A stretch of DNA of 41,036 bases from a virus: IMG/VR virus record IMGVR_UViG_3300032006_000024, positions 1 through 41,036 of that record; one strand, given 5' to 3'. Under the pieces are notes generated by a model. It had not been told where the DNA came from, made no database searches, and saw nothing but the letters and a program-made list of their open reading frames with translations. Both the position numbers and the translations under genes were made by a program. Shown one piece after another: positions 1-41,036 of the stretch. The stretch's first letter is position 1. Every line of letters starts with the position of its first letter.

Positions 1-127
1 CTGCTATCTGTTCACTACAAACTACTAAAACCCTACCAATAATGCCTAATAATGACACTAACTAAAGCAATAAATGACCACCTAAGTGGCAATGTAGCCA
101 GTGTTCTGGGCGCACAGCAGGAGCAAG
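1..127. repeat. Direct terminal repeat of the contig (left copy)
   Basis: Bases 1-127 are identical to 40910-41036. An exact terminal repeat of this size is what a de Bruijn assembler leaves when it closes a circular or circularly permuted molecule, and 127 is a common largest k-mer. I read it as an assembly overlap showing completeness, not as a biological terminal repeat, although a short real terminal redundancy cannot be excluded from the sequence alone. The break falls in the packaging region between the small and large terminase genes. Confidence 0.9.
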
Positions 128-4618: not shown

Positions 4619-5789
4619 AGCGCAAAGCAGTAGAAAACAATATACTGGTAGTTCTAAATATACTAGTAAAAAGGCAACATATAGTCCAGAGGGATTTGTT
4701 GATAGACCTACTCTTAAAAAACCGAAGCCGAATGTCGCACACCTTCCACCTAGGGAAACGTCTTATGGCTTAGATGATAAATATAGAGGCACAACTGTAG
4801 CAAAATCTACATATGTACCACCTCGTTCACCTCCTCCGCAAGAGGCTATGCCAACATTTGATCCGAATGTGAGCGGTGTACCTGCACAAGATATTCGCTG
4901 GCAACCCCCTAGACACGTAGCAGACAGTGGTGCTTTTACTGTATCACAACAAGAGAGAGACAGGGCTGCTCCAACAATAGCAGCACAAGAAGTAGCCCAA
5001 ATTAAAGCACAACGTGAAGCGGAAGCTAAAGCAGTCATAGCTGCTGCTGCTCGTGACTACCATACACGTACTCAGGCAGCACATTATGATACAAGGCAAT
5101 TAAAGTATCAGCAGTATGGTGATGATCGTGGTGCAGTCGTAGGCAGGAACGTTCCTATGCAAGGTGTTCAGGATGCAGGTGCAGATCGCAAATTCCAGAC
5201 TACCAGTCAGAGATTACCAACAGGGGGTTACATTCGCCAAACATTAGGACCAGGATCTACACTTTGGTATGAAAAGGATACAGATAGAACTCAAACTGCT
5301 GCAGATAGCGTAGGTTTTTGGAATGCAGTAGCGGATAGAGCAAGTGACCCTGCCGAAAGTTATTATCGCAATAATTTAGCCGATGCTGTCGCAGATAAGT
5401 GGGAACAAATACGTAATCGGCAAGATATGGATATAGCAGAGCCTAATGATAGTTTAATTATGAATTCTTTAGAAAAGTTTTATAAAGAAACTGAACATGG
5501 CTTGACACCAGACGATATAGGTTTTGAAATAATTATTCCAGACGATAAAGTAGATACACAAGACGATCCAGATTCAACAGTAGTAGTACCTACAACTATT
5601 ACTACTACACCACCACCAGGAGGTGGCGGTGCTGGCGATGCTGGTGGCGGTGGTTGGGATTGGGGAGGCTATGGCTCAGGTGGATATGGAAATTATGGCG
5701 GTAATGTATATAACATAACTTATGGTAATCGAGGTTACGAACAGCGTATAGATCCCTGGGCTTATGGAATGGTGCAATGGCGCATATAA
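4596..5789 (+). CDS. Probable structural protein with Gly-rich C-terminus, 397 aa
   Basis: The N-terminal 100 residues are basic and proline-rich and look disordered. A central helix-forming region near 120-160 is rich in A, Q, R and E (QIKAQREAEAKAVIAAAARD). The C-terminal 60 residues are a glycine-rich run with tyrosines and tryptophans (GGGGAGDAGGGGWDWGGYG) ending in ordinary sequence. It sits directly before the giant gene (9 nt). Low-complexity aromatic and glycine tails are seen in phage virion proteins, but I do not recognise this one. It may be an internal or ejected partner of the giant protein. Confidence 0.65.
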   Translation: MTHTPRHKAQSSRKQYTGSSKYTSKKATYSPEGFVDRPTLKKPKPNVAHLPPRETSYGLDDKYRGTTVAKSTYVPPRSPPPQEAMPTFDPNVSGVPAQDIRWQPPRHVADSGAFTVSQQERDRAAPTIAAQEVAQIKAQREAEAKAVIAAAARDYHTRTQAAHYDTRQLKYQQYGDDRGAVVGRNVPMQGVQDAGADRKFQTTSQRLPTGGYIRQTLGPGSTLWYEKDTDRTQTAADSVGFWNAVADRASDPAESYYRNNLADAVADKWEQIRNRQDMDIAEPNDSLIMNSLEKFYKETEHGLTPDDIGFEIIIPDDKVDTQDDPDSTVVVPTTITTTPPPGGGGAGDAGGGGWDWGGYGSGGYGNYGGNVYNITYGNRGYEQRIDPWAYGMVQWRI

Positions 5790-5798
5790 GAGTGACTT

Positions 5799-8700
5799 AT
5801 GCCACGTACAACTGACAAAGATGAAGCAGCACAAATACTAAAAGAGTACAAGCCTAAATCTCCAAAAAAAATAACTCGTGCTGACGGTAAAACAGCATAT
5901 GAGATCAAAGGTGGCAATATTGCCTTCCTTGATGATGATATACGTGATGCAGGCGTATTGGTTTATAAGGGTACTAATCGTAAAGTTAGTGCATCTGTAG
6001 TAGATGCGTGGCGTGAGCGGTCTAGTTCAAACCTATCTAAAGCGGTTTACAAGCCTGATATTCCAAAAATAGTTGCGGAATCCAAAGCCGAACAAGCGAA
6101 AAAAGGTAGAGAAGGTGGTTGGCCGAGTCCAGACGTAGAAGCGGAACGGCAACAACGTGAATGGGAACGTAGTGATGATAAACCCCCTGAGTTTACCGTA
6201 ACCAAGACTCCAGGACCACAGTCCTCGATTGGAGATGTATTACGCTTTTTAGGAGAGGATGGACAACTACCACCTCCACAAACAGTCGAACAATTATTAG
6301 AAAGTCTGCCTGAGGATCAACGTGGTGTAGCGTTCGGATTACCTTTACTGCAACCTGATCCTGATAAATTGCCTTGGCAACAAGATACTTTAAGGCAAGC
6401 CTATGCAGCAGCAATGAGTAGTACAGTTGGTAAAGCAGCATCGGTTGTCTTATCAGGTGTAGGTATGGGAGCTTTAGGTCTAGTAACGCTTGGTCCAGTC
6501 GGTGCAGTCGCTGCTGGTACTGCTGGTATTGCAATGGGAGTGGCTGCGCAATGGTCAAGATCAGAAAGTGATTTTGATAACGATAGCTGGTGGTGGAAAG
6601 CAATGTCGCATTTGGATGTAGGTGTACACCAGATCGAAAAAGCTCTTGGTTTTGCGTGGCAATCTGGGTTAAGTCTTGCAGACCCAGAGGAATATGGCAC
6701 ATTTGTTGAACTACTAAAAAATAGAGAAGCTGCTTGGGAAGCTGGTATTCTTATTCCAGAAGTAGTGCCAATGTCTCATCGAGTATCACTTGGTGTAGGT
6801 CTTGGTGCTGGTTTTACGGCTGGACCACAACGATATATTTGGGGTGGTGTAGGTGGTTTGATAGGTGCTGGACTAGATCTAGTTTTAGGTCAAGAAGTAA
6901 TAATGGATAGCGATGAAGTATTTGTTGACTATGATCTAGACCCCGCAGTTGGTGGTATTACTCCTATTATCGAGGCACGTAACAAGATAGCAGAAATCTC
7001 GGCTTTAGATATTCCTGAGGAGGAACAGGAGGAATTGATCAACCTTACTCTGGCAGAAATAGAGGCTAGATTTGGTTTGCCTGGACAAATGCGAGAACTA
7101 GCATTCCAATTTTCGCCTTTTGATCCATTAGAGCATATGATGCTTGGTCAACGTAAGGTAATACAAGCTGCTGCAAAAGTTAAAGGCAATCAGTTATTAG
7201 CAGAAGTTGCTGCCAAAAATAAAGGTGGTTGGATAGATGTTACTAATCAGTATCGAATTCAACAACGTAACCTAGAACCATTACGACTAGGTACGGAGAT
7301 CGGAGACGAAATAGGAGCTGCGGAGAAATTACTACTCGGATCAGATTTGCAGATAGCACGTGAAGGTAAATTTGAAGCTAAACTGCATCATAAATTATTC
7401 GGGCTTACTCCAGGCTCAAGAGCAAGAGAACTGGTCAATTCCACGCATGACCACTTATCAGCTACTTTATCGTCTGTCGAATTGGATGAGGCTTTTCCAC
7501 ACGTTACTCATCAAATGATAAAACGCATGACAAATGCTCCAACCCAATTACAAGGTGATTTTCCAGAAGCAGGTAATTTAGCTAATACGGTTTACGGCAG
7601 AGTAGTCCAACGTGTATTAGAAAATGGTGCTTTGGCGAAAGTAGAAACCCTATTAGGTAATTGGGACTACCATAAGCCATTTGCGGAATTAGTCGATGAT
7701 ATTGCCGTCAAGCTAGATGTAGATCGCGAAATAGTTATGGAGCGTGTGATCAAAGGTGAGGCTGACGCTGTATTGTCTCAATATTCAAATAAACTTAGCC
7801 AAAGAGGCGAACAGATCAAAGAAATACAGCGACTAGGTGATCAAACAGGTTTACTCAAACCTGTGGAAGTGAATGCTAAAACGCTTACTGAAAATGTAAA
7901 AGCCTTCAAACAAGAAGGTGTGCCTTACACCTTAGATATGTATCGCTCGGCTTTGTATTCAGCAGTAGCTGATGGAGCTGCGGAATGGGGTATAAGTTTA
8001 TTTGGTGTCAAGCCTTATGGGTTTGGTACACAGCTTGCAGCTACTACTAAAGCACTAGAGTCTTTGATATTACTTACTCCTAATCCTGCCTACTATATGA
8101 ATAATCTATTGAATGGCTTGGTTACATTACCTGCACGTGGCATACATAGTTTCCGTAATTTATTTATGGGTAAAAAGGCTTTAGTTGATAAGATGTCTGA
8201 GTATGGAGCAATACCAGCTAGAATGACAGCAGGTATTGGACAGGCAGGTTTACCCGATGCGTTTGGTGGTAATGCTGGTTTAGATAAAGCAGTCAGTAAT
8301 GCACTCAATATTATTGGAAAAGCCGAACAACCACAAGGTGGTCTACCAACAAAAGTATTACATAAAGCTCAAAAGGGTATTCAGACATTTGCGGAAAAAG
8401 TCCCTACTTTTATGAACATGGGTAAAGCTGCACAAACTACTGAACAGTGGCAATCTGCTTATGCTGTAATGACAGGGTTTGAGGAAATGTGGTCACAAGT
8501 ACATAGATTAGGTGTAGGTGTAGATCATATGCCCCCAAGTCTTAGTGAGGCGTTAGGCGATACAGCAGTAAATGCTATCTATCAGGCTGTATTAGATGGT
8601 AAAAATCCTGCTGAAATTGGTAAGGCTATCCTAAATGAACCACAAAAAATATCACCTACTAGATTTTATGAGGCCATTGATAAACAAAGAGGTTTTGAAC

Positions 8701-11700
8701 CAGGCACAGCACGTAGAATATTGATCCGAGATGGTTTAGAGGATCGTTTGCAAGAGGAATTTGATAAGTTAGGAACAGATTTTACAGCTACTGATTTCAC
8801 ACGAGCAGTCGCTAGAGTAAAAGCAGAGGTTTCTGCAAATGTAGATCAGAGGTTTTTAGATGATCTGGAGGCACAGGCAGGTTATCAAGCAACTATATTA
8901 CAAGCGGAAGGTGCAGGAGGATTACTCAAACTTGTTGGTGATGTAGATAGTAGTCGAGCAATAACATACGACCTGCATTTTAAGAATTTGAATGAGTCTT
9001 GGGCTGACATAAACAATGCGACTACTCCAGAAATAAGAACAATTATGATCCAGTCTATGTTCCAACAGGCTGACGACTTATGGAAACGACAAAACCAAAG
9101 GGAACTAACTTTATACAATACTTTAGAAAATAGTGTGAACGAGTTAGGTTTGAAACCTGATACTGCACCCCAGCTATTACGTAATGTAGAACTAAAACAC
9201 AAAGCCGATGCGGATTTTCATCAATTACGACAAAAAACATATGGCGAATATTTTGCTAAAGATAAGGGTGAAGGCGATTGGGAGAACGATGTACAAATTC
9301 CACTAGATGCAGCATATAAAGATATGATGAAAAAGCACCAGGTATACACAGAACGTATCAATAAATACTTGGTAGCTACAGTAAAGAAAGCGACTAATAA
9401 TAAAGCATACGCAGATGCTTTAGCTAATGCGCAACGTAATATGTTGCAATTCAATACCGATGACCAAATGCGTGTAATGGAATTTTGGAAATCTATTCGG
9501 GAAGGTGTATCCGATCAGACTCATGCCGAATTCCATGCCGAACGGATTAAGTTACGGACAAAAGCTATAGAAAGACATGATAGAGATCTGGCACAAGTAT
9601 TCGCAACAAGCCAAGCGGATATAAAAGCAGCCGATATTACCAGTACCGCTAAAACATCAACCCAGGAGGAACAGGTCCAAGCCTTAGAAATGCGTCAACC
9701 TGAACTAACAACGGCTGAGGCTACTGCTCAAGTAAAAGGCGATCAAGCAGGCAAACTACAAACTGATGGTAGTTATGTGCCTGAAAAAATAGATCCTAAT
9801 CCAGAACCTGCTAAAAGCGTAACACAACCTAAATGGAATTACGGTGATGACGCACCTGACGCTATTAGAACAAACTCATTGAATGATGTAGACGTAATGA
9901 GTCCACACGACTACAACGATTTAGTTGCAGTAGGTAATGAGATCGACCTAATAGATGTCGTGGCACGTACAATAGTAGAACGACCTCAAGATTATAAGGC
10001 GTTGGGATCAACACCTGAGGCAATATTACAAAAAGTTATTGCCAATACTGATATAGATACTAGAGTTTCTGATGAACAAGGTTTGTATAGATATGGCACG
10101 GTAGAGTTAGACGATAAACATACCACTATATATCAAATCGCTAGAGAGGCTGGTATAGATGAAGCTGATATAGCACGTTGGTATTCAGAACATATACAAG
10201 AACGTATTGATGATGGTCTGCAAGAGCCAATCACGAGGGCGTTCGCAGTTAGAGGAAGTAGCAGATATTCAGTAGATGTAGCCGACTCTTTAGCTATTGA
10301 TGTAACTGCATTCGATGCTTACAAGCGTGACAAAGGGATAGCTATTGAGATCTCTAAACACGACTTATGGCGACCATTAGATTATGGTGTTGTGGCAGAC
10401 CTGCCTCCAGCGTTACGTAATGCCTATATGGAATATATAGAGGCTAGTAAGAAGCTAGAAATTATGCGACAAAAGCCTGAATATTTGGCAGGCATGGAGG
10501 ATGCAAAACTCAAATTCGCTGAATTTAGCGATGACGTGGTGTCAGCCAAAGCTTATTTGGTGAGAGCAAAGGAAGCCTTTAGTGTAAGAGCTACTAAAGT
10601 ATGGGATGGTGAAAGCGCATGGGAAGTTGGTGATGTGGTTTTATTCGACTATTACCCAGGTCGGGCGATCGATCTAAGAGGGGGCGCAATACCGAAAGAT
10701 TACCATAGACCAGCAGTATTAGTAGCTATAGGCGAGTATGCTGATAACCATAATGCAGTATGGTTAGTTGACCAAAACTTTATATACAGAACTCCACTTG
10801 ATCAAAACGATGTATATATTATAAGACCTTACTACGAAGGTGGTGCGAGAGATCCCAACTTTGATGCCAAAAAACTACCTGACGGTACAGACGATCTAGG
10901 TAATGACCTTGCTAGAGCATTAGACGAAGGTGGCATGGAAGCCGTCAACAAGATCATTGATCCTGAACTAAAAGCTGCTAGAGATATTGTTAGTAATGAT
11001 AAAGAAATCAATGATGCTACTAATGAAATGGCAAAGGAAGTGGTGGTTACAGAAGCTGTTGACGCTCCTCAGGGTGGACTAGGTGGAATAGCGTCAGATC
11101 CAGCATGGCTGGAAACAGAATTAAAACCTCTTATTCAAAATTTAGGTAATAAACAGTTACAAACGCAGTATGACGAACTGGTAACAACGCAGATAGTTAG
11201 AACTGCACAGGGTGAGCCTATGATAGCCATCCATGTAGAGGGTATTACCAAAAAACAAAAAGACCTTATCGTAAAACTAATGGACGAAATAGGTTATCAA
11301 CCAAATTCTAAAATATATCTGCAAACCAAAGCTGGCTCTAAAGATTCCTTTGATGTTTATGCACCTGCTCCTGAAACAGGTGGTCCACAAGCTCCTTCTG
11401 TTGAAGCTATACGTTCCTGGCGCACTCGTGCTGACGTACAAGAACAACTACGAGCTACATTAGCTGATAGACCTGCTCCTGAACCAGAACCCAAGATGGA
11501 TGTTTTCGAACAGGCTAAGTTGGATCGAAAGCACAACGAGAGCGTATTAGAGGATCTAGCAGTAGAGGCTATGGGAGCTTATATTGTAGGTCGAGAGCCT
11601 GATTGGGACTCTGGTGGCGTAACAATACAGCTTGATCAAGCTAATCCACTACGAGATACTGTAGGTGTATATATTGGTCGTGACGCATATCGTTATAACG

Positions 11701-14700
11701 ATTTGCGTAAAACTACGTTTGACCAAGCAAAAGCATCGGTTGAGGAGTTTTTGCAGAGCAAAGGCTTTGAAAAAACTGGTGAAACAACAAAAGTTGATCG
11801 TAATTATTCCAGGGTACAAAAAAGATGGGATGAAGCTACGCAACAAATGCGTGTTGTGTCTGGTAGACGTGAAAATGTTAGGGAAACTGTAACAGGTGAT
11901 GTATGGAAAATAAATGCTCCTGAATATCGAGTAAAAATAGCACTTGAGAAACCAGGTGTTCCACAAGCAACAACTTTTACTGGTACTGATGGTCAAGTAG
12001 AAGCTGTAATGACGTTACTTGATGCTCGTGCTAGATCGGCTGTAAGTAGACGTGAGGTTGCAGATGTTGACGAATGGTATGCCCATAGATTTGCAGGTGT
12101 AACTAAAGATCCACCAACTACTGGTGATGTTGTGTTACAGGGAACGGAGAAAGGCGCAGTTACATTCCTGGAGGATGGCAGGGCTCTCTTGCATATGATG
12201 AGTCAGTCAGATGTAAGTACAGCAGTACATGAGATTGGGCATGTATTTAGACGTGAACTTGAAGGAGACGGATTCCTGGGGAATTCTATTTTGCAGGAGG
12301 ATCTGGCAATAGCTGCAGAATGGTCAGGTGCTACTTTTGTTAGCCAAGATCCAATACTTGGACCTAAATACGACTGGTCTGTTGAGGCAGAGGAAAAATT
12401 TGCACGTGGGTTTGAAAAATATTTATCCGAAGGTAAAGCTCCCAACTCTAGTTTAGAAATAGTATTTGAACAACTAAAACGCTGGTTACGTAACATTTAT
12501 AAAAGTATTGTCAATTCTCCATTAGAGGATGAACTATCACCTGCAATGCGAGACTTGTTTGATCGGTTATTAAATGATTATCCTGATCTAGCTGGTGTTA
12601 CTGGAAACTCTGTAAAAGGGTGGGGATCTGATCCTAATAAACAATACGATCTGAAATGGCGTATTGTAGAAGGCAGAGACATTATTGCTAGTCACCATCC
12701 ACCAGAGTCTGTTTTAACTACCATGAAGCGCAATCCAAAGTATGCTCAAGAATATCAACCAAGACAACGTGGGCGACAGGCTAGTACAGATCAAGTATTA
12801 AACATCTCTAAACAGTTAAGTGCTGACGAACTACTAAAAGACACCAATAGTATTCTTGAAGGTTCACCAATTATTACACCAGAAGGTCAAATATTAAGTG
12901 GTAATGTACGTTACCTTGCGTGGCTTTTCGGAGCAAAACAGTATCCAGCAGGTGTTGAAAGTGCAAATGTGGAGAAATATACAGCCGAACTAAATAAGTT
13001 ATTTAGCGGTGATGTTAGCGCATATGGCATAACGGATTATGAGCCTGGTATGTTTGAAATGCCAATGTTAGTACGTGTACTAAATAACCGAAAATTGATC
13101 CCAGACTTTGTACGTGAAGCTAATGTATCAACTGTACAGGTTATGTCTAGAGTAGAAACGGCTGTTGCGGACGCAGCCAGAATAAGCGATGAGTCTCTGC
13201 GTAAATTACATATAGATGCTACTGGTAATATGGACGCAACGTTTCGTAGTGCAAAAAACAGAGATTTTGTTAAATCGTTTATAGAAGGTATACCTGAGAC
13301 AGAGCGTGCTGCTTTATTCGATGCGACAGGTATGAAGTTAACTAGTGATGCTATCAACAGACTAACGGCTGCAGTATTTGCAAAGGCTATACCAGGCGAA
13401 ACAGGTGTACGATTAGCTAATTCTATATTTGAAACTAATGAGTTAGGTGTAAAAAATATCACTACGGCTGTAGTGAGACAAGCTGGTAATATTGCTGACA
13501 TAGAGGCATTGGCTAGAACCAATAATATAAGACCCGATTTAGTTATTGCTGAGGATATAGGCAAGTCTGTCCTTAAATTGCAAGAGATCAAACAAAGCTC
13601 CAATTCGAATGTACAGGATTATCTTGATCAATCGGCTCTGTTTGGGGATGAGCTTAACGCATTCCAAAAAGAATTACTTACGGATTTCAATAATCATGCT
13701 AGAAGTGAGAAAAAAGTCCGAACTATCTTGAAGCATTATTACGAATTAGTTAAGAAAGAGCCTGCACCACAGCAGACTCAAATGCTGGAAATACCTAATA
13801 ATTCCAAACCAGCCTTATGGGAACGTGCTAAGGATCTGATGAAACAAGAGCTTGATCCACCACCAGCATCACAGGACGTACTATTCCAACGTGGCGAAGT
13901 CAAGAATTTATACGCATCACACAATTTGAGTGTAGAACGTGTAAATCAAGCTATGGCTTTAGGTGGTTTTCCTAGCCCTAGTATTGCTATACATAAGTCG
14001 GAGTTAGGACATACTGGTTTTGGCAACGTCACCATTATTTTCAAAAAGGACGTAGTCGATCCACAAAAAGGTGCATGGGTTTACGAAAGGGATGCCTACA
14101 GCAAAAGAGGAGCAATACCAGCTTATCCACGAGTAAAGATGAAGGATTATGACGCTTTGACAGCTAGAATGCGACCTGCATATGAGGCTATCGGACGTAA
14201 ATACTGGGATGAGGGAGGCGGCTTTCAGGAAAATTTGATCGGAAATATCGATGAAGGTGGGCTATGGAATGTAAATAAACAACAAGCCATCGAAAAAGCA
14301 TTGATGATGGATACTATAAAATATATGTACATGATGGAAACCAATCGATTACCAGAGGCTATTTCTTTAGAGCGAATGAATAGTTTGGAAGAGGGTGATC
14401 GAATAATTTCATACTATGTAAAAGTTCAGGATGGAAAAACATCTCCGTTAACATCAAACGATAAATTAGAGGTACTTAACTATTATAAAACAAAGGATTG
14501 GATTGATCGCGGTTTTTTCGATGCTATGGAAAAAGGCTCACAAATAAAGTTTAAAGATGCTGTTTATCGGAAACACTATGAGGTAATTAAAGATCCTGCT
14601 GAGTTGCACAAAAAGGCGGTTGAACACCCAGATCCATTTTTTAAAGGTGGGCAGTATATGTCTCCTGATATAGTTATTAAAGATGTAGCTAACAAAGGTG

Positions 14701-17700
14701 GCGTAAAAAATGATATAGAGAAGGCACGTGCGTTACTCTGGCAAGGTTGGTTGGATGGGCTAAACACTCAAACTTTTGACGTGTCTACTAACGCAGTAAC
14801 CTATAGCGTAGCAGACAATCCTATATTCGCAGGGTCATTGGAGCGTGGCAGAATTAAGTATGGAACACCTGATTATATTAACTACGTACAAGAAACAATA
14901 GGTTCTATGTTTGGTCCACCTCGCATTAAAGTACAAGGCGAATGGCGACCATATACTTTGAATAATGTAGTTTTAGCTAAAGGTCTGCCAAAACCTGGTC
15001 GGGAAATTGAAGGAATGTCCGAAGGTAAGGTACGTGCTTTGTCTGCACGTAGGTTTACTAGCGTACACCAAATACGCAAATATAGCGATCAACTACAACC
15101 TTCCGATATAGTCCAAGAGTATATAGGCGACACTAGAGGTTTATATTCGGAAGTAACGAAAATACGAAAACAGCATAAAATTTATCACCATGATGAGGAT
15201 CTTGTAATGGAAACTATCGCTGAGTTCAATCAAGCGGTAATGGGCAAGAGGACTGCCTCACTTGCAGTTTCTGATATTGATGCACAGCGTAGGGTAATGA
15301 AAAGTATATTACGCAGAAACGGTTATGAGCTTTTTGAAGATCCTCAATCTATTGATGACTTCCAATTAACTATGGAAGGAGATCGATTTTACATTCGGGG
15401 CGTATCACCGACACAAATTGATAAAGCAATAGAATTGGCTAAAGTTATACGTGAAACTCCTGCACGCTATTTTGAGGCTATACCACATCGTGCTGTCCGA
15501 TTTGATGAAGTAGCTGCTATGGTAGTACCACATGATACACCTCAAACTACTATCGACGGACTTAAGCGTAGAGGTATAGAAATAAAAACATATAATGCTA
15601 ATGATAAAGCCTCACGTATAAAAGCTGTTAGGTCAACATATTCTAAACCTGATGTATTGTTCCAGGTAGCAGGCGAGAAAAACACAAACGCAACTCATCA
15701 ATTAGATCCAATAAAGATGGGTCAACAAGTAGCGGATGATCCTGATCGTTTCCAGACCATTAAGTTTGCAGATGGTCGAGAGGCAATCATTCTAGGTAAA
15801 CTTAGCCCTAAACCTGATGATGATATTGTACAGATCGTAAGACCAATAGCCGAAAGCATTTTGGTGCGTTTTGTGGATGAGCCAGAACCTCGTACTATTA
15901 AACTGTCAGGCGATGAACTGGTGCGTGAATACTCTAGGAGTGGCGCAGGTGCAGAAGGTCAGCCATTTGCAATGAAAGAGGTACAGCTTACTGGTGATCT
16001 AGTGCCTGGTACGATAGACCGAATGGGTTATCAACCTGTACCGTATGGTAATGCTATGGAGGAAATGCAGTATCAGACTATGCCTCTATTAGACGATATG
16101 GTAAATATGGCACAGACCAAGAATGGTGTTATGGATACGGTCAATTCTGGTAATTTTATACGAAGTCTAGAACCAGCCGAAGCCAAGCAATTTGCTGATT
16201 GGTTGCGTAAACAACAGGGTAACATGGCTGAAAGTAAACTGTTGTCTATGAAATGGGGCGAGTACAAACGAGATGCTGCTCTATTGAATTATGGACGTAG
16301 ATATAATCAAAATCACTACTTAGGTTTAGTTGCACCATATGAGTTCTGGCTAACTACTAGTATGCGTAAGTGGGCAATACATTCTATTGATCGACCTAAA
16401 TGGTTAGCAGCTTATTATCGTATGAATAAATTCTTACATACGCAGGTACAACAACCAGATTTCCCAGACCGTTTGGCAGGTAGAGTAAAGATACCGTTAC
16501 CTTTCTTGCCAGACTGGATGGGCGGTGGAATGTGGATAAACCCAGGCGATATAGGCTTGCCGTTTGGTAGATTTTTATGGCCGTTTGAAGCACGACAACG
16601 TAGCCAGGAGCAGACCACTATGAAAGCCAATCGGCAACTGTACGATATGCTTGAGGATGGTAAGATCACACAGACCGAATTTGATACAGCTATGGAAAGT
16701 CGTTCAGGACAAGTTTATGATCGGGCAGTAGAAAATGCTCAAGCAGAGGATTCAAATTTGCGCTTTGACGCATTTGACTGGTCTACGATGACGGCATCTC
16801 CTCATGTACCCCTAATGTGGGCGTATCAGTACCTTAGAGGCACGCCAGAAAGAATTGGACCTCTACCTATGACAAGACAACTTAAAGCCATATCTGCGCT
16901 TCTAGGGATCGGTGGACCAGGCGGTGTAAATATCGAGGAAAACCTAAGACGTAAATTTGATTTACCAATTTATGATCAGTGGGACGATTATCGTATAGAT
17001 CGAGCGTTATCCGACATGGCTGCCGAAGGATTGATAAGTGTCAACGAAGCTAAAATAGCGATGATCGAAAAACGTGGTGATATATATTTACAGGCTGTAC
17101 AGCGTTCAGCAGAACAGGTTGGTGCAGGCACATTGAATGCGTTCATATTTGGTAGTTCAGGACAACTATATCCAGAAGGTGAACGTAGGCAACGAGTATT
17201 GAAAAAACTAATGAGTGCAGCTTGGGCAGCGCAGGAAGGTGGCGACACAGAAGCAATAAGTAGGTTCTTTGATGCTTATCCTGAATATGAAGCCAGGTTA
17301 GCCTTATTTGATGACAAAGACGAAAGATTACGCAATTTCTTGGTAGATAATGTATGGAACAAATGGTTTGATTTACCAAAGCTATACAAAAAACAACTTA
17401 AGGATCAACTTGGCGACACTTTCTCTAACTCATTTATAAAAAAACCAGAGGATGGATCAAAGCGAGATTACAGTGTTATTCCGCTTGAAACACTAGCGAT
17501 GTGGGCTAAAGCGATTGGTTCTTATATTCCAGACGTACCTGAATTAGAGGATATTGGCAAAATACCAATCGAATATGCACCATATGAAATGGCAGTATTA
17601 TATGATCAGTATGGTGCGGAACGAGCTGCGCTATTAGAAGCATTTGGTGTCGAAGGCGCAAATCTAAATGAACAGTGGGATAATTGGCACAAGCTAAATG

Positions 17701-19040
17701 AGCAATATTTTGATCTCAAAGAAGCTAAGGAGACTAGTCCTGAGCAGGTAGAGATTGATAAATTGATCGAAAAGGACGTACCTAACTTTGCCGATCTGGA
17801 GGAGGACTACTATAGAATACCTGCTGTAAATCAAAAGCGTGCTGTCAAAGATTTATTATGGCCGAATGCGGATGTACTGTGGGAACAGTATTTTGACATT
17901 CCAAAGGACTCCAGGATAACTATTAGCGAAACTCCACCTGCATCACTAGATCCAGCATATAACGAGTATTATGCAGAACAAACCCAACTATTCCCTGACA
18001 TTGGTACGGTCTATGACGCTTACTACGATATGCAATCTGTCAAGGAATTTTATGCTATACGTGATGCTAAATGGGCAAACTATGGCGCAGATATGGGCGA
18101 GTACGGTGTACTAAAAAACAATGCTATATCCTGGCGACAGGAAAATTGGCCGAATGCTGCTGCAATGGAAATTGAATATTACACACTAAAGAATAGTGGT
18201 GCATCAAAAGAACAACTACGTAATTATAGATCCACACACTCTGAACTAATGAGCTACTGGTCAGAGAAAAACAAAGACGATTCTCCGCATACTATAGCTA
18301 AGGACTTTAGAGAGGAAAAGGGACTAATTGAGGTCTGGAACTTCACTGAGGAGTGGGATCGGACACATCCTGATAAGGTGGCATATGAAGCAGATCATCC
18401 CGAAATGCAACAACATCGAGATTGGAAAGCTAAATGGGGTGGTCGCAATCCTGAACTAATGGCATTCCTTCAAGAACATCCACGTAGACGTAGAAGTGAG
18501 CGATCACTGTACTATGAAAAAAATCTCAAAGAGTTAGGAGATTGGGACGATGCGTTTGATGAAAAGCACCCTGAGATCCAAAAGTTCCTTGATGATAACC
18601 CTGAATTAGAGGAGGCTTGGGAAATTGAACGTGACTGGCAAGATGCAAATCCAATGAAAGTACAAACGCTCAAGGCAGCTAGTGATGCTTCTGACGAATT
18701 CTTGGAAGCTAATCCAGTTCTAAATGCAGTTTGGGATAATAAACGTAAATGGTTAGAGGAATATCCTGAGTTGGAGCAGTATGTAGAGACTACTCCTGTT
18801 GAGGAAATCGCTGAAACAGTAGATGAATTATTTACACACAACCCAGCACTATCACGTATGTGGGTTATTGGATTGATGGGCGGTGGTCTAAGCGATGCAA
18901 CAATAAGAGCTTTGCGTGGCGAATGGGAACTTAGTGGAAGCACTGAGCCGTTTGAAATATGGTTAGCTGAAAAATCCGATGGTGCGATGCTACAAATGGC
19001 TGGTAGTATGCCAGAGCAAGAGGTAGCAGTAACAAACTAG
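5799..19040 (+). CDS. Giant polyvalent-type virion protein, 4413 aa
   Basis: One uninterrupted frame of 13.2 kb. Seen in order: a charged N-terminus; glycine-rich hydrophobic segments at about 210-250 and 325-366 that could insert in a membrane; a PNPAYYMNNLLNG segment near 756; a zincin motif HEIGH (H2144, E2145, H2148) followed by EEKFARGFEKYL, as in metallopeptidase domains of polyvalent proteins; a ddrB-ParB-like domain at about 2285-2660 (IIASHHPP, LQ-type QPRQRGRQAS segment, SGNVRY); a large-polyvalent-protein-type domain from 2700 to 3180 opening with ASHNLSVERVNQAMALGGF; an aromatic conserved block near 3497-3597 (APYEFWLTTSMRKW); and helical W/HPE repeats at 3927-4344. DVLFQ occurs near two domain borders. 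Position between portal and scaffold suggests a packaged, ejected protein that acts in the host early; this is inference. No RNA polymerase motifs were found. Confidence 0.85.
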   Translation: MPRTTDKDEAAQILKEYKPKSPKKITRADGKTAYEIKGGNIAFLDDDIRDAGVLVYKGTNRKVSASVVDAWRERSSSNLSKAVYKPDIPKIVAESKAEQAKKGREGGWPSPDVEAERQQREWERSDDKPPEFTVTKTPGPQSSIGDVLRFLGEDGQLPPPQTVEQLLESLPEDQRGVAFGLPLLQPDPDKLPWQQDTLRQAYAAAMSSTVGKAASVVLSGVGMGALGLVTLGPVGAVAAGTAGIAMGVAAQWSRSESDFDNDSWWWKAMSHLDVGVHQIEKALGFAWQSGLSLADPEEYGTFVELLKNREAAWEAGILIPEVVPMSHRVSLGVGLGAGFTAGPQRYIWGGVGGLIGAGLDLVLGQEVIMDSDEVFVDYDLDPAVGGITPIIEARNKIAEISALDIPEEEQEELINLTLAEIEARFGLPGQMRELAFQFSPFDPLEHMMLGQRKVIQAAAKVKGNQLLAEVAAKNKGGWIDVTNQYRIQQRNLEPLRLGTEIGDEIGAAEKLLLGSDLQIAREGKFEAKLHHKLFGLTPGSRARELVNSTHDHLSATLSSVELDEAFPHVTHQMIKRMTNAPTQLQGDFPEAGNLANTVYGRVVQRVLENGALAKVETLLGNWDYHKPFAELVDDIAVKLDVDREIVMERVIKGEADAVLSQYSNKLSQRGEQIKEIQRLGDQTGLLKPVEVNAKTLTENVKAFKQEGVPYTLDMYRSALYSAVADGAAEWGISLFGVKPYGFGTQLAATTKALESLILLTPNPAYYMNNLLNGLVTLPARGIHSFRNLFMGKKALVDKMSEYGAIPARMTAGIGQAGLPDAFGGNAGLDKAVSNALNIIGKAEQPQGGLPTKVLHKAQKGIQTFAEKVPTFMNMGKAAQTTEQWQSAYAVMTGFEEMWSQVHRLGVGVDHMPPSLSEALGDTAVNAIYQAVLDGKNPAEIGKAILNEPQKISPTRFYEAIDKQRGFEPGTARRILIRDGLEDRLQEEFDKLGTDFTATDFTRAVARVKAEVSANVDQRFLDDLEAQAGYQATILQAEGAGGLLKLVGDVDSSRAITYDLHFKNLNESWADINNATTPEIRTIMIQSMFQQADDLWKRQNQRELTLYNTLENSVNELGLKPDTAPQLLRNVELKHKADADFHQLRQKTYGEYFAKDKGEGDWENDVQIPLDAAYKDMMKKHQVYTERINKYLVATVKKATNNKAYADALANAQRNMLQFNTDDQMRVMEFWKSIREGVSDQTHAEFHAERIKLRTKAIERHDRDLAQVFATSQADIKAADITSTAKTSTQEEQVQALEMRQPELTTAEATAQVKGDQAGKLQTDGSYVPEKIDPNPEPAKSVTQPKWNYGDDAPDAIRTNSLNDVDVMSPHDYNDLVAVGNEIDLIDVVARTIVERPQDYKALGSTPEAILQKVIANTDIDTRVSDEQGLYRYGTVELDDKHTTIYQIAREAGIDEADIARWYSEHIQERIDDGLQEPITRAFAVRGSSRYSVDVADSLAIDVTAFDAYKRDKGIAIEISKHDLWRPLDYGVVADLPPALRNAYMEYIEASKKLEIMRQKPEYLAGMEDAKLKFAEFSDDVVSAKAYLVRAKEAFSVRATKVWDGESAWEVGDVVLFDYYPGRAIDLRGGAIPKDYHRPAVLVAIGEYADNHNAVWLVDQNFIYRTPLDQNDVYIIRPYYEGGARDPNFDAKKLPDGTDDLGNDLARALDEGGMEAVNKIIDPELKAARDIVSNDKEINDATNEMAKEVVVTEAVDAPQGGLGGIASDPAWLETELKPLIQNLGNKQLQTQYDELVTTQIVRTAQGEPMIAIHVEGITKKQKDLIVKLMDEIGYQPNSKIYLQTKAGSKDSFDVYAPAPETGGPQAPSVEAIRSWRTRADVQEQLRATLADRPAPEPEPKMDVFEQAKLDRKHNESVLEDLAVEAMGAYIVGREPDWDSGGVTIQLDQANPLRDTVGVYIGRDAYRYNDLRKTTFDQAKASVEEFLQSKGFEKTGETTKVDRNYSRVQKRWDEATQQMRVVSGRRENVRETVTGDVWKINAPEYRVKIALEKPGVPQATTFTGTDGQVEAVMTLLDARARSAVSRREVADVDEWYAHRFAGVTKDPPTTGDVVLQGTEKGAVTFLEDGRALLHMMSQSDVSTAVHEIGHVFRRELEGDGFLGNSILQEDLAIAAEWSGATFVSQDPILGPKYDWSVEAEEKFARGFEKYLSEGKAPNSSLEIVFEQLKRWLRNIYKSIVNSPLEDELSPAMRDLFDRLLNDYPDLAGVTGNSVKGWGSDPNKQYDLKWRIVEGRDIIASHHPPESVLTTMKRNPKYAQEYQPRQRGRQASTDQVLNISKQLSADELLKDTNSILEGSPIITPEGQILSGNVRYLAWLFGAKQYPAGVESANVEKYTAELNKLFSGDVSAYGITDYEPGMFEMPMLVRVLNNRKLIPDFVREANVSTVQVMSRVETAVADAARISDESLRKLHIDATGNMDATFRSAKNRDFVKSFIEGIPETERAALFDATGMKLTSDAINRLTAAVFAKAIPGETGVRLANSIFETNELGVKNITTAVVRQAGNIADIEALARTNNIRPDLVIAEDIGKSVLKLQEIKQSSNSNVQDYLDQSALFGDELNAFQKELLTDFNNHARSEKKVRTILKHYYELVKKEPAPQQTQMLEIPNNSKPALWERAKDLMKQELDPPPASQDVLFQRGEVKNLYASHNLSVERVNQAMALGGFPSPSIAIHKSELGHTGFGNVTIIFKKDVVDPQKGAWVYERDAYSKRGAIPAYPRVKMKDYDALTARMRPAYEAIGRKYWDEGGGFQENLIGNIDEGGLWNVNKQQAIEKALMMDTIKYMYMMETNRLPEAISLERMNSLEEGDRIISYYVKVQDGKTSPLTSNDKLEVLNYYKTKDWIDRGFFDAMEKGSQIKFKDAVYRKHYEVIKDPAELHKKAVEHPDPFFKGGQYMSPDIVIKDVANKGGVKNDIEKARALLWQGWLDGLNTQTFDVSTNAVTYSVADNPIFAGSLERGRIKYGTPDYINYVQETIGSMFGPPRIKVQGEWRPYTLNNVVLAKGLPKPGREIEGMSEGKVRALSARRFTSVHQIRKYSDQLQPSDIVQEYIGDTRGLYSEVTKIRKQHKIYHHDEDLVMETIAEFNQAVMGKRTASLAVSDIDAQRRVMKSILRRNGYELFEDPQSIDDFQLTMEGDRFYIRGVSPTQIDKAIELAKVIRETPARYFEAIPHRAVRFDEVAAMVVPHDTPQTTIDGLKRRGIEIKTYNANDKASRIKAVRSTYSKPDVLFQVAGEKNTNATHQLDPIKMGQQVADDPDRFQTIKFADGREAIILGKLSPKPDDDIVQIVRPIAESILVRFVDEPEPRTIKLSGDELVREYSRSGAGAEGQPFAMKEVQLTGDLVPGTIDRMGYQPVPYGNAMEEMQYQTMPLLDDMVNMAQTKNGVMDTVNSGNFIRSLEPAEAKQFADWLRKQQGNMAESKLLSMKWGEYKRDAALLNYGRRYNQNHYLGLVAPYEFWLTTSMRKWAIHSIDRPKWLAAYYRMNKFLHTQVQQPDFPDRLAGRVKIPLPFLPDWMGGGMWINPGDIGLPFGRFLWPFEARQRSQEQTTMKANRQLYDMLEDGKITQTEFDTAMESRSGQVYDRAVENAQAEDSNLRFDAFDWSTMTASPHVPLMWAYQYLRGTPERIGPLPMTRQLKAISALLGIGGPGGVNIEENLRRKFDLPIYDQWDDYRIDRALSDMAAEGLISVNEAKIAMIEKRGDIYLQAVQRSAEQVGAGTLNAFIFGSSGQLYPEGERRQRVLKKLMSAAWAAQEGGDTEAISRFFDAYPEYEARLALFDDKDERLRNFLVDNVWNKWFDLPKLYKKQLKDQLGDTFSNSFIKKPEDGSKRDYSVIPLETLAMWAKAIGSYIPDVPELEDIGKIPIEYAPYEMAVLYDQYGAERAALLEAFGVEGANLNEQWDNWHKLNEQYFDLKEAKETSPEQVEIDKLIEKDVPNFADLEEDYYRIPAVNQKRAVKDLLWPNADVLWEQYFDIPKDSRITISETPPASLDPAYNEYYAEQTQLFPDIGTVYDAYYDMQSVKEFYAIRDAKWANYGADMGEYGVLKNNAISWRQENWPNAAAMEIEYYTLKNSGASKEQLRNYRSTHSELMSYWSEKNKDDSPHTIAKDFREEKGLIEVWNFTEEWDRTHPDKVAYEADHPEMQQHRDWKAKWGGRNPELMAFLQEHPRRRRSERSLYYEKNLKELGDWDDAFDEKHPEIQKFLDDNPELEEAWEIERDWQDANPMKVQTLKAASDASDEFLEANPVLNAVWDNKRKWLEEYPELEQYVETTPVEEIAETVDELFTHNPALSRMWVIGLMGGGLSDATIRALRGEWELSGSTEPFEIWLAEKSDGAMLQMAGSMPEQEVAVTN

Positions 19041-31299: not shown

Positions 31300-32877
31300 A
31301 TGGAAATTCGTAAGCAGGATCTAGCGTTTATAATGGCGCAAGAGGGGTTTAGTCGGAAGGCATACGCTGACGGTGGAGGTGGGCGTTATTCTATAGGATA
31401 TGGAACAAGAGCGAAAGATGCACATGAAATTATATCTATTGAGGAAGCTGAAACAAGATTGCGTGATGCGCTGGAACACTTTGCGCAAGGCTTGGAACAG
31501 AAACTGGTTTTCGAACCTACGCCCGACCAACAAACGGCTTTACTTAGTTTGGTCTACAATCTGGGGCTGGCTGGTGCGAACAAAATCGTTACAATCTGTA
31601 ATGCAGGTGATTTTGTTAAAGCGTCCGAACACGCTAAAGAGTACGTCTACAGTAACGGCAACAAACTTGCAGCACTTGTGCGGAGACGAGACAGTGAAGC
31701 AAGGTTGCTATCCCGATCCGAGTCCAGATCTGTGGTGGTGGATAATGAAATGAATAGAGGTGAACCACGCACTCAATACGCTAGGGTTGTACACCTGGTA
31801 GAACAAAACGCATCTATTGATACTTGGGTACAGGTAGCAAGAGAAGCCTACGAGGCACGTAGTAGCGTGACGGCATCATACGATGACGCAGGTATTGGCA
31901 ACCTAGATGACCGTACAGTTATATTGCATGGGAAACACGAAGGCGCAGAACAGTGGTTTCAGCAGTATTATCCAGGAGTTAAGGTAGTAAGAGATCAAAT
32001 TCCTACTCCTGATCCTGACAAGCCGTCTATAGAGCCAACAAGCCACGCTCTGTGGGGCTTGCATGGGTCTGCTGATGCTTGTTGGGGACATGGTAGCGAA
32101 GCTATACCTGCCATACCTGCGATGGTGAAGGAAGCCAAGATCGAAGCGTTTAAGATATTGTCCACCGAAAGTCCTGATACGATTGAGCAAATGCGCAGGA
32201 TCAATCCTAATATGCACTTTGTAGTTAGGGCTATGTGGCAACCTTCTCAGGAACATAATACTGTAGATGATTTTTTACAGGCTACCTACCAGGACGTAAA
32301 GAAACATTACCAGGCAGGGGTTAGAATGTTCGAAATACACAATGAACCCAATTTGCATGTTGAAGGACATACCATCTGTTGGAATAACGGTGCTGAGTTT
32401 GCTGGTTTTCTAGCACGAGCTGCTGGTGAGTATAGAAGGGCGTGTCCTGAAATACAAATAGGATGGCCGGGCTTGTCACCAGGCGATTATATTCCCAACA
32501 TTAGGACTGCAGCTATGCCATTTTGGCAACAGGCAGTAGCGACTGGTGTGGTAGACGAGTGTGATTGGATCGGGGCGCATTGTTACTTTACCAATCAAGA
32601 TGAGATGCGTGGAAATGCAGGTCATTATTATCGTAATTATGTGCGTGGCAACAAGCCCATTCTCATTACTGAATTTTCAAACCCTAAAGAGGGTATTACA
32701 TCGGATGTAAAAGGCAACCAATACGTTACGTATGTGAATAGTTTAGATCCAATAGTACATTCAGCATACGCATTTATAGCAACTGCAAGCGGAAATTCGT
32801 TTCCGCATGAAGTATGGACAGGAACACCGATTGCGTATATAGTTGGTGGGCGACCTAATCATGGAACAGGAATATAA
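31300..32877 (+). CDS. Endolysin: GH24 lysozyme fused to TIM-barrel glycosidase
   Basis: 525 aa with two catalytic parts. Residues 1-140 are a T4-lysozyme-like GH24 muramidase: catalytic E15 in AQEGFSRKAYAD with D24, then RYSIGYGT and the LLSLVYNLG core. A linker (141-160) leads to a second module, with SYDDAGIGNLDDRTVILHG at 193-211 and a TIM-barrel of clan GH-A type having FEIHNEPN (acid/base E349) and ILITEFSNP (nucleophile E458). Such an architecture cuts glycan strands of the wall in two ways or adds a second target polysaccharide. No signal peptide is seen, so a holin is needed. The ATG at 31300 lacks an SD and lies next to -10 elements. Confidence 0.85.
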   Translation: MEIRKQDLAFIMAQEGFSRKAYADGGGGRYSIGYGTRAKDAHEIISIEEAETRLRDALEHFAQGLEQKLVFEPTPDQQTALLSLVYNLGLAGANKIVTICNAGDFVKASEHAKEYVYSNGNKLAALVRRRDSEARLLSRSESRSVVVDNEMNRGEPRTQYARVVHLVEQNASIDTWVQVAREAYEARSSVTASYDDAGIGNLDDRTVILHGKHEGAEQWFQQYYPGVKVVRDQIPTPDPDKPSIEPTSHALWGLHGSADACWGHGSEAIPAIPAMVKEAKIEAFKILSTESPDTIEQMRRINPNMHFVVRAMWQPSQEHNTVDDFLQATYQDVKKHYQAGVRMFEIHNEPNLHVEGHTICWNNGAEFAGFLARAAGEYRRACPEIQIGWPGLSPGDYIPNIRTAAMPFWQQAVATGVVDECDWIGAHCYFTNQDEMRGNAGHYYRNYVRGNKPILITEFSNPKEGITSDVKGNQYVTYVNSLDPIVHSAYAFIATASGNSFPHEVWTGTPIAYIVGGRPNHGTGI

Positions 32878-33112: not shown

Positions 33113-33985
33113 ATGATACCTAAAATAGAAAGGGGTAAAAGTCCTGGTGCGTATTTTACTAGGCTAAAATATAGGCGTGGTTGGGAACAATACTTTTTAA
33201 TAGTATCGGATATTCACTACGATGCAGTGGGTTGTGATCGCAAATTAATAAAAAAACATTTAGACCAAGCGGTGGAACGTGACGCAGGCATCCTCCTGGT
33301 AGGTGATACATGCGATTTGATGCAAGGCAAAAAAGATAGGAGGGCAGCCAAGCACGCTTTGCGCCCAGAATATATGTTTGACGATTATCTTGGTGCGGTT
33401 ATGGAGGACGCAGCACAATTTCTTTCGCCTTACGCAAAAAACATAATGTTCATTGCTCAAGGTAATCACGAGTTAGGTTATAAAAAACACCACGAGATCG
33501 ATCCACTATCCATATTAGCAACACATATTAATGCAGAAACTGGCATTCGCCCTATCGTAGCACCGTATACTGGCTGGATGCAGTTCAAGTGTGAAGCGCA
33601 CACTGGCGGTAGTAGAAAAACAGTGCGTTTGAAATACCATCATGGTGTTGGTGGCAATAGTCCTGTAACCAAAGGGGCGATTGCATCTAATAGATCGGTA
33701 GCTATGTGGGAGGCAGATGTATATGTAAGAGGCCATATTCATAATCGTTTTTCCATGCAGATGCCATATGAACGGATCTCAGCTAACGGTACGATAGTGG
33801 AAGACCAAAATAGAATTTATCTACAAACTGGATGTTATGTTAGTGATTATGAAAATGGTGATAGCTGGAGTCAACAAAAAGGTTTTGGGTCGCCAGCATT
33901 GGGTGGATTTTGGTTGCGGTTATATTCTGAAGGCACTTCAGATCCTAACAACCTCGTTAAATGGATTGCCTATCCCACTGACTAA
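33113..33985 (+). CDS. Calcineurin-like metallophosphoesterase
   Basis: 290 aa with the full set of metal ligands of the family: SDIHYD (D33, H35), VGDTCDL (D65, D68), QGNHE (N118, H119), YHHG (H176, H177) and VRGHIH (H208, H210). These bind two metal ions and hydrolyse phosphate esters; the substrate cannot be told, with nucleotides, RNA or DNA ends all possible. It follows the XhlA-like gene by 3 nt with no SD, so coupling is likely. The unit ends with the non-coding island beginning at 33990. Confidence 0.85.
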   Translation: MIPKIERGKSPGAYFTRLKYRRGWEQYFLIVSDIHYDAVGCDRKLIKKHLDQAVERDAGILLVGDTCDLMQGKKDRRAAKHALRPEYMFDDYLGAVMEDAAQFLSPYAKNIMFIAQGNHELGYKKHHEIDPLSILATHINAETGIRPIVAPYTGWMQFKCEAHTGGSRKTVRLKYHHGVGGNSPVTKGAIASNRSVAMWEADVYVRGHIHNRFSMQMPYERISANGTIVEDQNRIYLQTGCYVSDYENGDSWSQQKGFGSPALGGFWLRLYSEGTSDPNNLVKWIAYPTD

Positions 33986-33992
33986 GCCACTA

Positions 33993-34001
33993 TGGTAAAA
34001 T
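33993..34001 (+). promoter_or_regulatory. Extended -10 promoter for the candidate small RNA
   Basis: TGGTAAAAT: a TG dinucleotide, one base and TAAAAT (33996-34001), which matches five of six -10 bases. Extended -10 promoters need no -35, and none is seen. The predicted start is about 34008, at the foot of the hairpin of the candidate RNA. It lies just after the phosphoesterase stop. Confidence 0.5.
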
Positions 34002-34007
34002 ACTTAC

Positions 34008-34090
34008 ATCACGTTATGCACTAACCTCCACGTAGTGCGTGTGATGCCTCCTTTGCACAACGCCTGGCAAAACCAGGCGTTGTCTTGTTT
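34008..34090 (+). ncRNA. Candidate small RNA with two exposed anti-SD motifs
   Basis: Predicted about 83 nt. CATCAC (34007-34012) pairs with GTGATG (34041-34046); after a 3-nt bulge (GTT) ATGCACTA (34016-34023) pairs with TAGTGCGT (34033-34040, one G-U), so the stem has 14 pairs. The apical loop ACCTCCACG (34024-34032) exposes ACCTCC. A single-stranded linker CCTCCTTTGC (34047-34056) follows, then the intrinsic terminator 34057-34083 with CTTGTTT. ACCTCC and CCTCCTTT match the anti-SD 3' end of bacterial 16S rRNA and can pair with GGAGG. Own promoter, hairpin and terminator argue for an independent transcript; an elaborate operon terminator is the alternative. Regulation of translation is inference. 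Confidence 0.6.
34057..34090 (+). terminator. Intrinsic terminator of the candidate small RNA
   Basis: ACAACGCCTGG (34057-34067), loop CAAAA, CCAGGCGTTGT (34073-34083): an 11-bp perfect GC-rich stem followed by CTTGTTT. It would also end read-through from the phosphoesterase gene. The arm CAGGCGT is repeated at 34121-34127, so the downstream region could compete for the left arm. Confidence 0.85.
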
Positions 34091-34245: not shown

Positions 34246-34274
34246 TTGACAAACCTTGATGTATATGCTAAACT
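34246..34274 (+). promoter_or_regulatory. Promoter of the ribbon-helix-helix gene (leaderless)
   Basis: A perfect TTGACA (34246-34251), 17-bp spacer ending TATGC, and TAAACT (34269-34274) with an extended TGC. The -10 box ends 7 nt before ATG 34282, so the transcript should begin at about the ATG; there is no SD. TTGACAAA followed by CTTG is shared with the promoter at 37345, suggesting shared control. Confidence 0.7.
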
Positions 34275-34281
34275 CCATATT

Positions 34282-34461
34282 ATGAGTAATAAAACGTGGA
34301 TAGCAGGATATGTATCATCTAAACTAAAGCAGGACATAATACGCCAGTCCGAACTGGAGGATCGGACGGTAAGCGCAACAGTCAAACGTGCGTTAGAGTT
34401 GTATTTAGAACAAGCAAAGGAGCTTACAAGTGGAAAACCAAACAAGGCTAGAGTACGATAG
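34282..34461 (+). CDS. Ribbon-helix-helix DNA-binding protein
   Basis: 59 aa. The start is ATG 34282, because an upstream TTG at 34246 would be the promoter -35 itself. The sequence has the Arc/CopG plan: a beta strand (WIAGYVSSKLKQDI), first helix (RQSELEDRT), turn and second helix (VSATVKRALELYLEQAKEL). Such proteins bind palindromic DNA as dimers of dimers. It is the first gene of the early-type region, so it is a good candidate repressor or activator of the promoters at 34246 and 37345. The end of the gene overlaps the next by 32 nt. A basic tail (KPNKARVR) follows the fold. Confidence 0.75.
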   Translation: MSNKTWIAGYVSSKLKQDIIRQSELEDRTVSATVKRALELYLEQAKELTSGKPNKARVR

Positions 34462-34636
34462 TTCCTGGTGGGAACACGAAGGGCGTTTTGAAATCACGAG
34501 TAGTCCTTGTGACTATTGTGAGTTAGATATTCAAAATCAGTTGTTGTCTGACGTGGTAGATGGACTGCAGTACTGTGAGGTTTGTTATCAAAAGTTAGTC
34601 AAAAACAAAACTATAATAAAGGAGGTAGCAGCATGA
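34430..34636 (+). CDS. Small zinc-ribbon-like protein, 68 aa
   Basis: Starts with GTG 34430 after AAGGAG (34419-34424), overlapping the ribbon-helix-helix gene. Two cysteine pairs, PCDYCEL (about residue 27-30) and YCEVCYQK (about 48-51), are 18 residues apart, as expected for a treble-clef or zinc ribbon. Acidic N-terminus with W-W. Such proteins often regulate or act as adaptors; the role is unknown. The stop overlaps the next ATG (ATGA). Confidence 0.65.
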   Translation: MENQTRLEYDSSWWEHEGRFEITSSPCDYCELDIQNQLLSDVVDGLQYCEVCYQKLVKNKTIIKEVAA

Positions 34637-34902
34637 GTTATGCTTTCGTGGAGCTAGTGGGCAAGCTGTATGTAAACCTAAACGAGGTTACTTATACACG
34701 TAGTTGGTATCGTGATGACGTTAAGATACTGACCATACATTTTACAAGCGGTGACAGTACTGATCTGTTCGGTGATGACATCGCATTGTTTGAGTCTGGT
34801 ATGCGTGAGAGCAATACAGTAATCGAGATGCCAGTGGACGACCCAAAAACACTATCTAATTTATCCAGGAAATACTTTGAAAAAGTAAGGGTTTCGGTAT
34901 GA
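34633..34902 (+). CDS. Unknown protein, 89 aa
   Basis: The ATG at 34633 has a perfect SD (AAGGAGG, 34619-34625); an upstream TTG in frame is ignored. The sequence begins MSYAFVELVGKLYVNLNEVT and contains ILTIHFTSGDSTDLFGDDIA: two beta hairpins followed by a helix, a plan found in small phage proteins of unknown role. The 3' end overlaps the next gene by 4 nt. No motif suggests an enzyme. Confidence 0.65.
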   Translation: MSYAFVELVGKLYVNLNEVTYTRSWYRDDVKILTIHFTSGDSTDLFGDDIALFESGMRESNTVIEMPVDDPKTLSNLSRKYFEKVRVSV

Positions 34903-37374: not shown

Positions 37375-37409
37375 AAGGTACATTAAATTGTGCGTGGAGG
37401 CGCAAAAAA

Positions 37410-37868
37410 ATGACCAGCGATTTCTTTTTTGAGGATGAGAAAATCGAAAGACAATATCTTGAACAGTCGGAGAAGGTAGTAATGTTTGTAGATAGTGCAG
37501 AGACAGAATTTCCACACAGCAAACTACATCAGTTATATAAAAAGTCTGATAGTAAACACATACCAGGACTAGACCACACTTGCGGTTTTTGCGGTGGTGC
37601 TAAGTGTCAAGGGTATGGAACGAATGAGGCATATATATTTAGTGATGTGCCTGAAAATGGTTTATGTTCTTGTTGGGAAAAGTACGAGGAGATACACAAG
37701 GAAAGTCCTAAAGATGAGAATGAGGCCTTTTGGAATGATGATATGGAGATGTGGATGCAACATCAACCTACCAGGATAATCTTACATCCTGATATAGCCT
37801 ATGATGTGGTTAGTGATGGTACACCATTAGACCAATTAGAGGAGGGGAAGGATTATGTATATGGATGA
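37410..37868 (+). CDS. Unknown zinc-binding protein, 152 aa
   Basis: First gene behind the operator-bearing promoter. Acidic protein with one cysteine cluster: TCGFCGGAKCQG (about 58-69) and GLCSCW (about 89-94), a possible zinc site. The C-terminal 50 residues are rich in D, E and aromatic residues. SD GGAGG is 9 nt upstream. No family recognised. As an early-promoter gene it may act on the host, but that is a guess. It overlaps the next gene by 14 nt. Confidence 0.65.
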   Translation: MTSDFFFEDEKIERQYLEQSEKVVMFVDSAETEFPHSKLHQLYKKSDSKHIPGLDHTCGFCGGAKCQGYGTNEAYIFSDVPENGLCSCWEKYEEIHKESPKDENEAFWNDDMEMWMQHQPTRIILHPDIAYDVVSDGTPLDQLEEGKDYVYG

Positions 37869-40909: not shown

Positions 40910-41036
40910 CTGCTATCTGTTCACTACAAACTACTAAAACCCTACCAATAATGCCTAATAATGACACTAACTAAAGCAATAAATGACCACCTAAGTGGCA
41001 ATGTAGCCAGTGTTCTGGGCGCACAGCAGGAGCAAG
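40910..41036. repeat. Direct terminal repeat of the contig (right copy)
   Basis: Identical to bases 1-127. Reading across the end, the 436-bp stretch from the terS stop to the terL ATG (about 309 bp after removing the duplicate) holds direct repeats, the small ORF at 52 and the 15-bp iterons. Confidence 0.9.

Follow-up and report, generated by a model that had tools for sequence, protein, structure and literature searches.

A candidate small RNA gene with two exposed anti-Shine-Dalgarno motifs in a phage genome, and its differently built counterparts in related phages

Introduction

What is encoded by a short noncoding stretch of a phage genome that carries, one after the other, a promoter, two anti-Shine-Dalgarno (anti-SD) motifs and an intrinsic terminator? 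The question is raised by positions 33993-34090 of an IMG/VR virus record that is 41036 bases long, referred to here in its full length as the window. To our knowledge, few phage small RNAs (sRNAs) have known targets. A phage sRNA with anti-SD loops or with the design described here was not found in the literature searched, which did not extend to preprints and most subscription papers.

A direct repeat of 127 bases is common to both ends of the window (1-127 is identical to 40910-41036), which probably makes the record a complete phage genome of 40909 bases. One third of it is taken up by an ORF of 4413 aa at 5799-19040. An endolysin (phage lysozyme) with a glycosyl-hydrolase-like C-terminal part is found at 31300-32877, the C-terminal Pfam matches being below the curated cut-off. 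The 5′ neighbour of the noncoding unit is a calcineurin-like phosphoesterase gene (33113-33985, plus strand), which adjoins the lysis gene and was used as the reference for divergence.

Results

Anatomy of the unit

The first-pass annotation had described an extended -10 promoter, a bulged hairpin with ACCTCC in its loop, a single-stranded linker and an intrinsic terminator, all outside of ORFs, and each of these is present on the plus strand. The extended -10, TGGTAAAAT, is at 33993-34001, with no -35 of note, and is identical in two relatives, L003 and L005; the predicted RNA start is at 34006-34009. Folding places a hairpin of 14 pairs with a 3-nt bulge on its 5′ side at 34007-34046, and all pairs are kept in the three sequences. 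The 9-nt loop, ACCTCCACG (34024-34032), forms anti-SD motif 1 and is predicted to be unpaired with a P of 0.85, although a weak C-G pair within it is also predicted. The linker, CCTCCTTT (34047-34054), forms anti-SD motif 2 and is likewise predicted to be unpaired (P 0.90). Loop and linker are both invariant in L003 and L005. The terminator, as read from the sequence, occupies 34057-34090 with an 11-bp stem at 34057-34083 and an imperfect T tract, CTTGTTT. Its loop (34068-34072) looks inverted between two of the phages, GCAAAAC in the window vs GTTTTGC in L003, on an outer stem that is the same in both.

On the plus strand the unit is free of ORFs of 40 aa or more, the nearest one ending at 33998. 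A minus-strand ORF of 54 aa overlaps the unit in the window and is not kept in L005. A minimal ORF in the hairpin, AUG CAC UAA, was set aside, as it is lost in L005.

Folding of the 83 nt first noted gives a z of -4.9 relative to shuffled sequences, and that of 34006-34090 a z of -5.7, with no shuffle as good. An extended -10 followed by two CCTCC is expected 0.07 times per genome in dinucleotide-shuffled windows, and the window has one; with the terminator included, the arrangement is found in 0 of 150 dinucleotide-shuffled windows. The unit is beyond chance.

Conservation of the window-type unit

Units of the window type are also found in L003/L004 and L005, with the phosphoesterase gene on the 5′ side and a ribbon-helix-helix-like gene on the 3′ side. 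In two relatives the unit is nearly unchanged, and the DNA of the upstream gene is only 62-63% identical to that of the window. Between the window and L005, DNA identity is 85% in the element, 63% in the upstream gene and 44% (unalignable) in the spacer that follows the terminator. It should be noted that this spacer is 98% alike in the window and L003, thus the element is isolated by the L005 comparison only. Invariant between the window and L005 are the -10 hexamer, the loop, the linker and both CCTCC motifs, and the latter are predicted to be unpaired in both phages (P 0.85-0.92).

Conservation and covariation in related phages had been proposed as a check on the unit. The CCTCC motifs are kept, and across the three window-type sequences all base pairs (24/24) are retained. 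Three pair changes are consistent but one-sided, and double changes number 0 in these three sequences, which is too little to be taken as covariation.

The closest upstream gene (92% aa identity) is that of L002, yet this phage lacks the window-type element. At that place it has an HNH-like gene and then a different promoter-terminator unit that contains TCTCC and no CCTCC. Strict scans did not find the element in records G005, G006, G013-G015 and G017, several of which are fragments.

Differently built units in relatives

Further relatives were collected via the upstream gene. The first-pass annotation had spoken of one phage RNA, a wording that proves too narrow: the phages of this group have several architectures, the window unit being one. 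In L029 the unit holds the same position as in the window and consists of TGGTACAAT, an 8-bp stem around an unstructured loop of 45 nt that carries two TAACCTCC, and a terminator, followed by a CopG/Arc-like gene. Elsewhere in L029, the leader of the gene after the regulator (5385-5475) carries TTTCCTCC and later AAGGAGG...AAAGGAG, possibly a cis-masked SD. The units of L013, L015, L020 and L031 have a TGTGGTA promoter, a stem around a large loop with GACCTCCTT, and a terminator, and a ribbon-helix-helix-like gene lies 3′ of the unit in L020 and L031. The outer stems of these four differ in sequence but each one pairs, ACGGGTGT with ATACCCGT and AGGGGTGC with GCACCCCT, as judged by eye from sequences and folds.

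In L172, L173 and L187 the promoter has the -10 sequence TATAAT with TTGCTA 17 bases on its 5′ side, and the RNA would carry ATCACCTCCTT near its 5′ end and a second hairpin with TTTCCTCC before the terminator; in L173 and L187 the 5′ part contains a hairpin with the loop CCTCCT. L025 displays the loop CCTCCTT on a 7-bp stem, followed by a terminator. L012 and L002 have TCTCC in place of CCTCC. The main CCTCC copy in the relatives is predicted to be unpaired (P 0.76-1.0), and second copies are sometimes partly paired. Thus promoters, stems and positions vary among relatives, and the exposed anti-SD is kept; the sRNA gene of this group is best read as fast-evolving.

A scan blind to CCTCC was made over 404 kb of relatives for noncoding units of 45-110 nt that run from an extended -10 to a terminator. 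It yielded seven distinct units, partly non-independent (two are of the window type and two of the L013/L020 type), and CCTCC is present in six of them. The seventh, from L012, has TCTCC within a 10-mer that is complementary to SD regions of three L012 genes. CCTCC appears in only ~4-34% of dinucleotide shuffles of the sRNAs, thus composition alone is insufficient as an explanation.

Gene neighbourhood and predicted targets

Downstream of the unit, a sigma-70-type promoter, TTGACA-17-TAAACT (34246-34274, plus strand), precedes a short ribbon-helix-helix-like regulator gene (34282-34461, plus strand). The window copy of this gene is without a family match; for its counterpart in L029 there are matches to CopG/Arc-like repressor families. 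The promoter stops 7 bases 5′ of the ATG, with the predicted RNA start at or adjoining the ATG, thus the 34282 mRNA is probably leaderless. By the same promoter spacing, a leaderless-looking start of the regulator gene is common to the window, L003, L005, L029, L020 and L031. The unit of the window is best read as placed at a border between late and early genes, where "early" is a label based on the order of the genes and on what they are likely to do.

Matching the whole sRNA to start regions gave long imperfect duplexes that were uninformative; therefore short single-stranded segments were used instead, by their complementarity to each phage's own sequences. Three putative target SDs, all on the plus strand, stand out in the window. 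The SD GCAAAGGAG (34414-34422) of the gene at 34430-34636 has 9 nt complementary to the linker sequence CTCCTTTGC and is conserved in L005 (L008 3983) and G022. The SD TAAAGGAGGTA (34617-34627) of the gene at 34633-34902 could form 11 pairs with the linker, two of them G-U, and is conserved in L005 and G022. The SD CGTGGAGG (37393-37400) of the gene at 37410-37868 could pair with the hairpin loop over 8 nt and is conserved in G022. Complementary segments are also present in L029, between CTCCTTTCGT and ACGAAAGGAG of the gene that comes first after the regulator, and in L012, between the linker TCTCGTCTCC and GGAGACGAGA immediately 5′ of three L012 starts. The pairing with phage mRNAs put forward in the first-pass annotation is supported at the level of complementarity, the longer matches being those to phage early genes.

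When the anti-SD core was kept and the rest shuffled, each phage's own sRNA scored above the shuffle mean against its own SDs in 11 of 11 phages, several of them closely related (p 0.005-0.31); for the window alone the result is not significant (p 0.25). In a swap test, sRNAs taken from relatives do as well as a phage's own in most phages, the window's own sRNA ranking fourth, and this test gave no support for own-phage target specificity except in L012/G001, G010 and G012. Taken together, the swap and core-kept shuffle results at best hint at target specificity in L012. Pairing of the sRNA with early-gene SDs is plausible from these complementarities.

Database searches and unrelated phages

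At the gathering score, no Rfam family matched the window unit, and with permissive thresholds every match scored far below the gathering level. A BLAST search with the element against phages and plasmids returned no homologues; five matches in Pseudomonas plasmids were rejected, as they are confined to 26 bases at the terminator. Scans of genome contigs with the exact form gave no match, and the loose form gave 74 scattered matches, none of which passes a filter for two motifs and a terminator.

A relaxed scan of IMG/VR found 35 stretches, most of them inside ORFs. Among the remainder are units in contigs without known relation to the window: L144 (6018, plus strand) and L148 (4546, plus), L167 (5958, plus) and L163 (minus), and L159 (minus). 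These combine an extended -10 and an intrinsic terminator with CCTCC copies that lie mostly in hairpin loops. Since chance matches are expected in a database of this size, and the conserved block extends past the element in both pairs, these units serve as a lead only. The gene that follows the L167 unit, by eye glutaredoxin-like, also has a start that looks leaderless. Pseudomonas phage Pa223 was rejected as a relative of L167, the match being only to the promoter of a tRNA-like stretch, and L065/L066 were dropped, as the opposite strand of the stretch appears, by eye, to be protein-coding.

Discussion

The interpretation that we favour, and hold to be somewhat better than an even bet, is that a phage sRNA gene stands on its own at 33993-34090 and that its product pairs with SD regions, likeliest those of the phage's own early genes. 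There is good support for a phage sRNA gene with displayed anti-SD motifs: the promoter-to-terminator unit is conserved, the 24 pairs are retained and the motif recurs across unrelated stems. The host-type extended -10 would yield an RNA of ~80 nt ending at its own terminator. The ACCTCC of the hairpin loop and the linker would remain single-stranded and base-pair with SD regions of mRNAs, and such pairing would block 30S binding and repress translation. The likeliest targets would be the early genes just downstream, at 34430, 34633 and 37410, and host mRNAs with strong SDs may also be hit. For the regulator gene beside the unit, a leaderless mRNA is predicted in the six phages named above, and this gene would escape.

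A broader action should be considered, whereby the RNA is a mimic of the 16S 3′ tail that binds host SDs generally, as a global decoy for host takeover rather than a regulator of particular phage genes. This is one form of the same idea, and the first-pass annotation had raised it; the best textual match, ATCACCTCCTT, is in L172, L173 and L187 and not in the window. That sequence resembles the 16S tail, the CCTCC(TTT) core is generic, and the swap test showed little own-phage specificity. However, the window phage's own genes also use SDs and would suffer too, and the L012 unit has no CCTCC but a match to SDs of L012 genes. We regard a global decoy as unlikely, if the most serious competitor. 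A plainer account is the end of a late operon, i.e., a terminator and a 3′ untranslated hairpin without action in trans, with incidental motifs. A strong terminator would be expected directly 3′ of the phosphoesterase gene, where the unit lies in the window type and in L029, but elsewhere it is found ~700 nt from that gene or after another gene. The unit's own extended -10 is invariant, and the motif is kept while stems and positions change and is present in six of the seven motif-blind units, all of which makes this account improbable.

Still less probable is a sponge or mimic of a host regulatory RNA or protein, whereby a copied anti-SD seed competes for sponges or a chaperone. Phage-encoded sponges, AgvB and AsxR, are known and are quoted in the source that describes the anti-SD seed common to the Caulobacter Sis sRNAs (PMC12559287), but no feature of the unit calls for a sponge, and complementarity to phage SDs already accounts for the motif. 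The poorest prospect is a DNA element of inverted repeats, either a repressor operator or a packaging or replication site: two interrupted palindromes do adjoin a regulator gene, but the inverted repeats are wholly changed among relatives, and it is the loop letters and the promoter-terminator order that are kept.

An sRNA pairing with SD regions has counterparts in known systems. NfeR1 (alpha-r14) represses ntrB via anti-SD motifs, and repression by masking of the start region was tested in that system (PMC10746234). The alpha-r14 or "cuckoo" sRNAs have several anti-SD motifs in unpaired hairpin regions, with stems free to vary (PMC10746234), and in predicted folds the window group likewise has unpaired anti-SDs on variable stems. 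They differ in being chromosomal, with three hairpins that each carry CCUCCUCCC; the window unit is phage-borne, displays CCUCC in one loop and one linker, and has one hairpin and a terminator in place of the three-hairpin CCUCCUCCC layout. The Caulobacter Sis sRNAs (SisA-D) share a 10-mer seed with an anti-SD signature and have many targets (PMC12559287), but they are host genes without demonstrated relation to the window unit in sequence or structure. The c4 antisense RNA of P1/P7 is a phage RNA that blocks a ribosome-binding site on phage mRNA, with complementary stretches thought to be in loops (PMC12197685). The window sRNA is similarly complementary to phage ribosome-binding sites; however, c4 has the single target mRNA ant, and the window has a self-contained unit in which motifs of the SD-core type fit several genes. 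AgvB and AsxR are stand-alone trans-acting phage sRNAs, but with host sRNAs and not SDs as partners. Like trans-acting phage sRNAs, the window unit is conserved, has its own promoter and terminator, and lies outside of ORFs. The window sRNA is best read as a separate family that would work like alpha-r14/"cuckoo" and P1 c4.

That anti-SD sRNAs are a recurrent phage device, evolved independently across lineages and reprogramming translation by SD masking, is a tentative idea which we consider somewhat doubtful. A short RNA gene of this kind would be present in the uncultured phage of the window and in most of the relatives open to checking, which suggests for this group a dedicated RNA that turns down translation of phage, and perhaps host, genes. 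An anti-SD gene that is kept while its stems, promoter and place change makes it possible to test whether SD masking sets the timing of early-gene translation or shuts down the host. An SD-masking RNA beside a regulator gene that is predicted to be leaderless, and so immune, would be a testable design principle.
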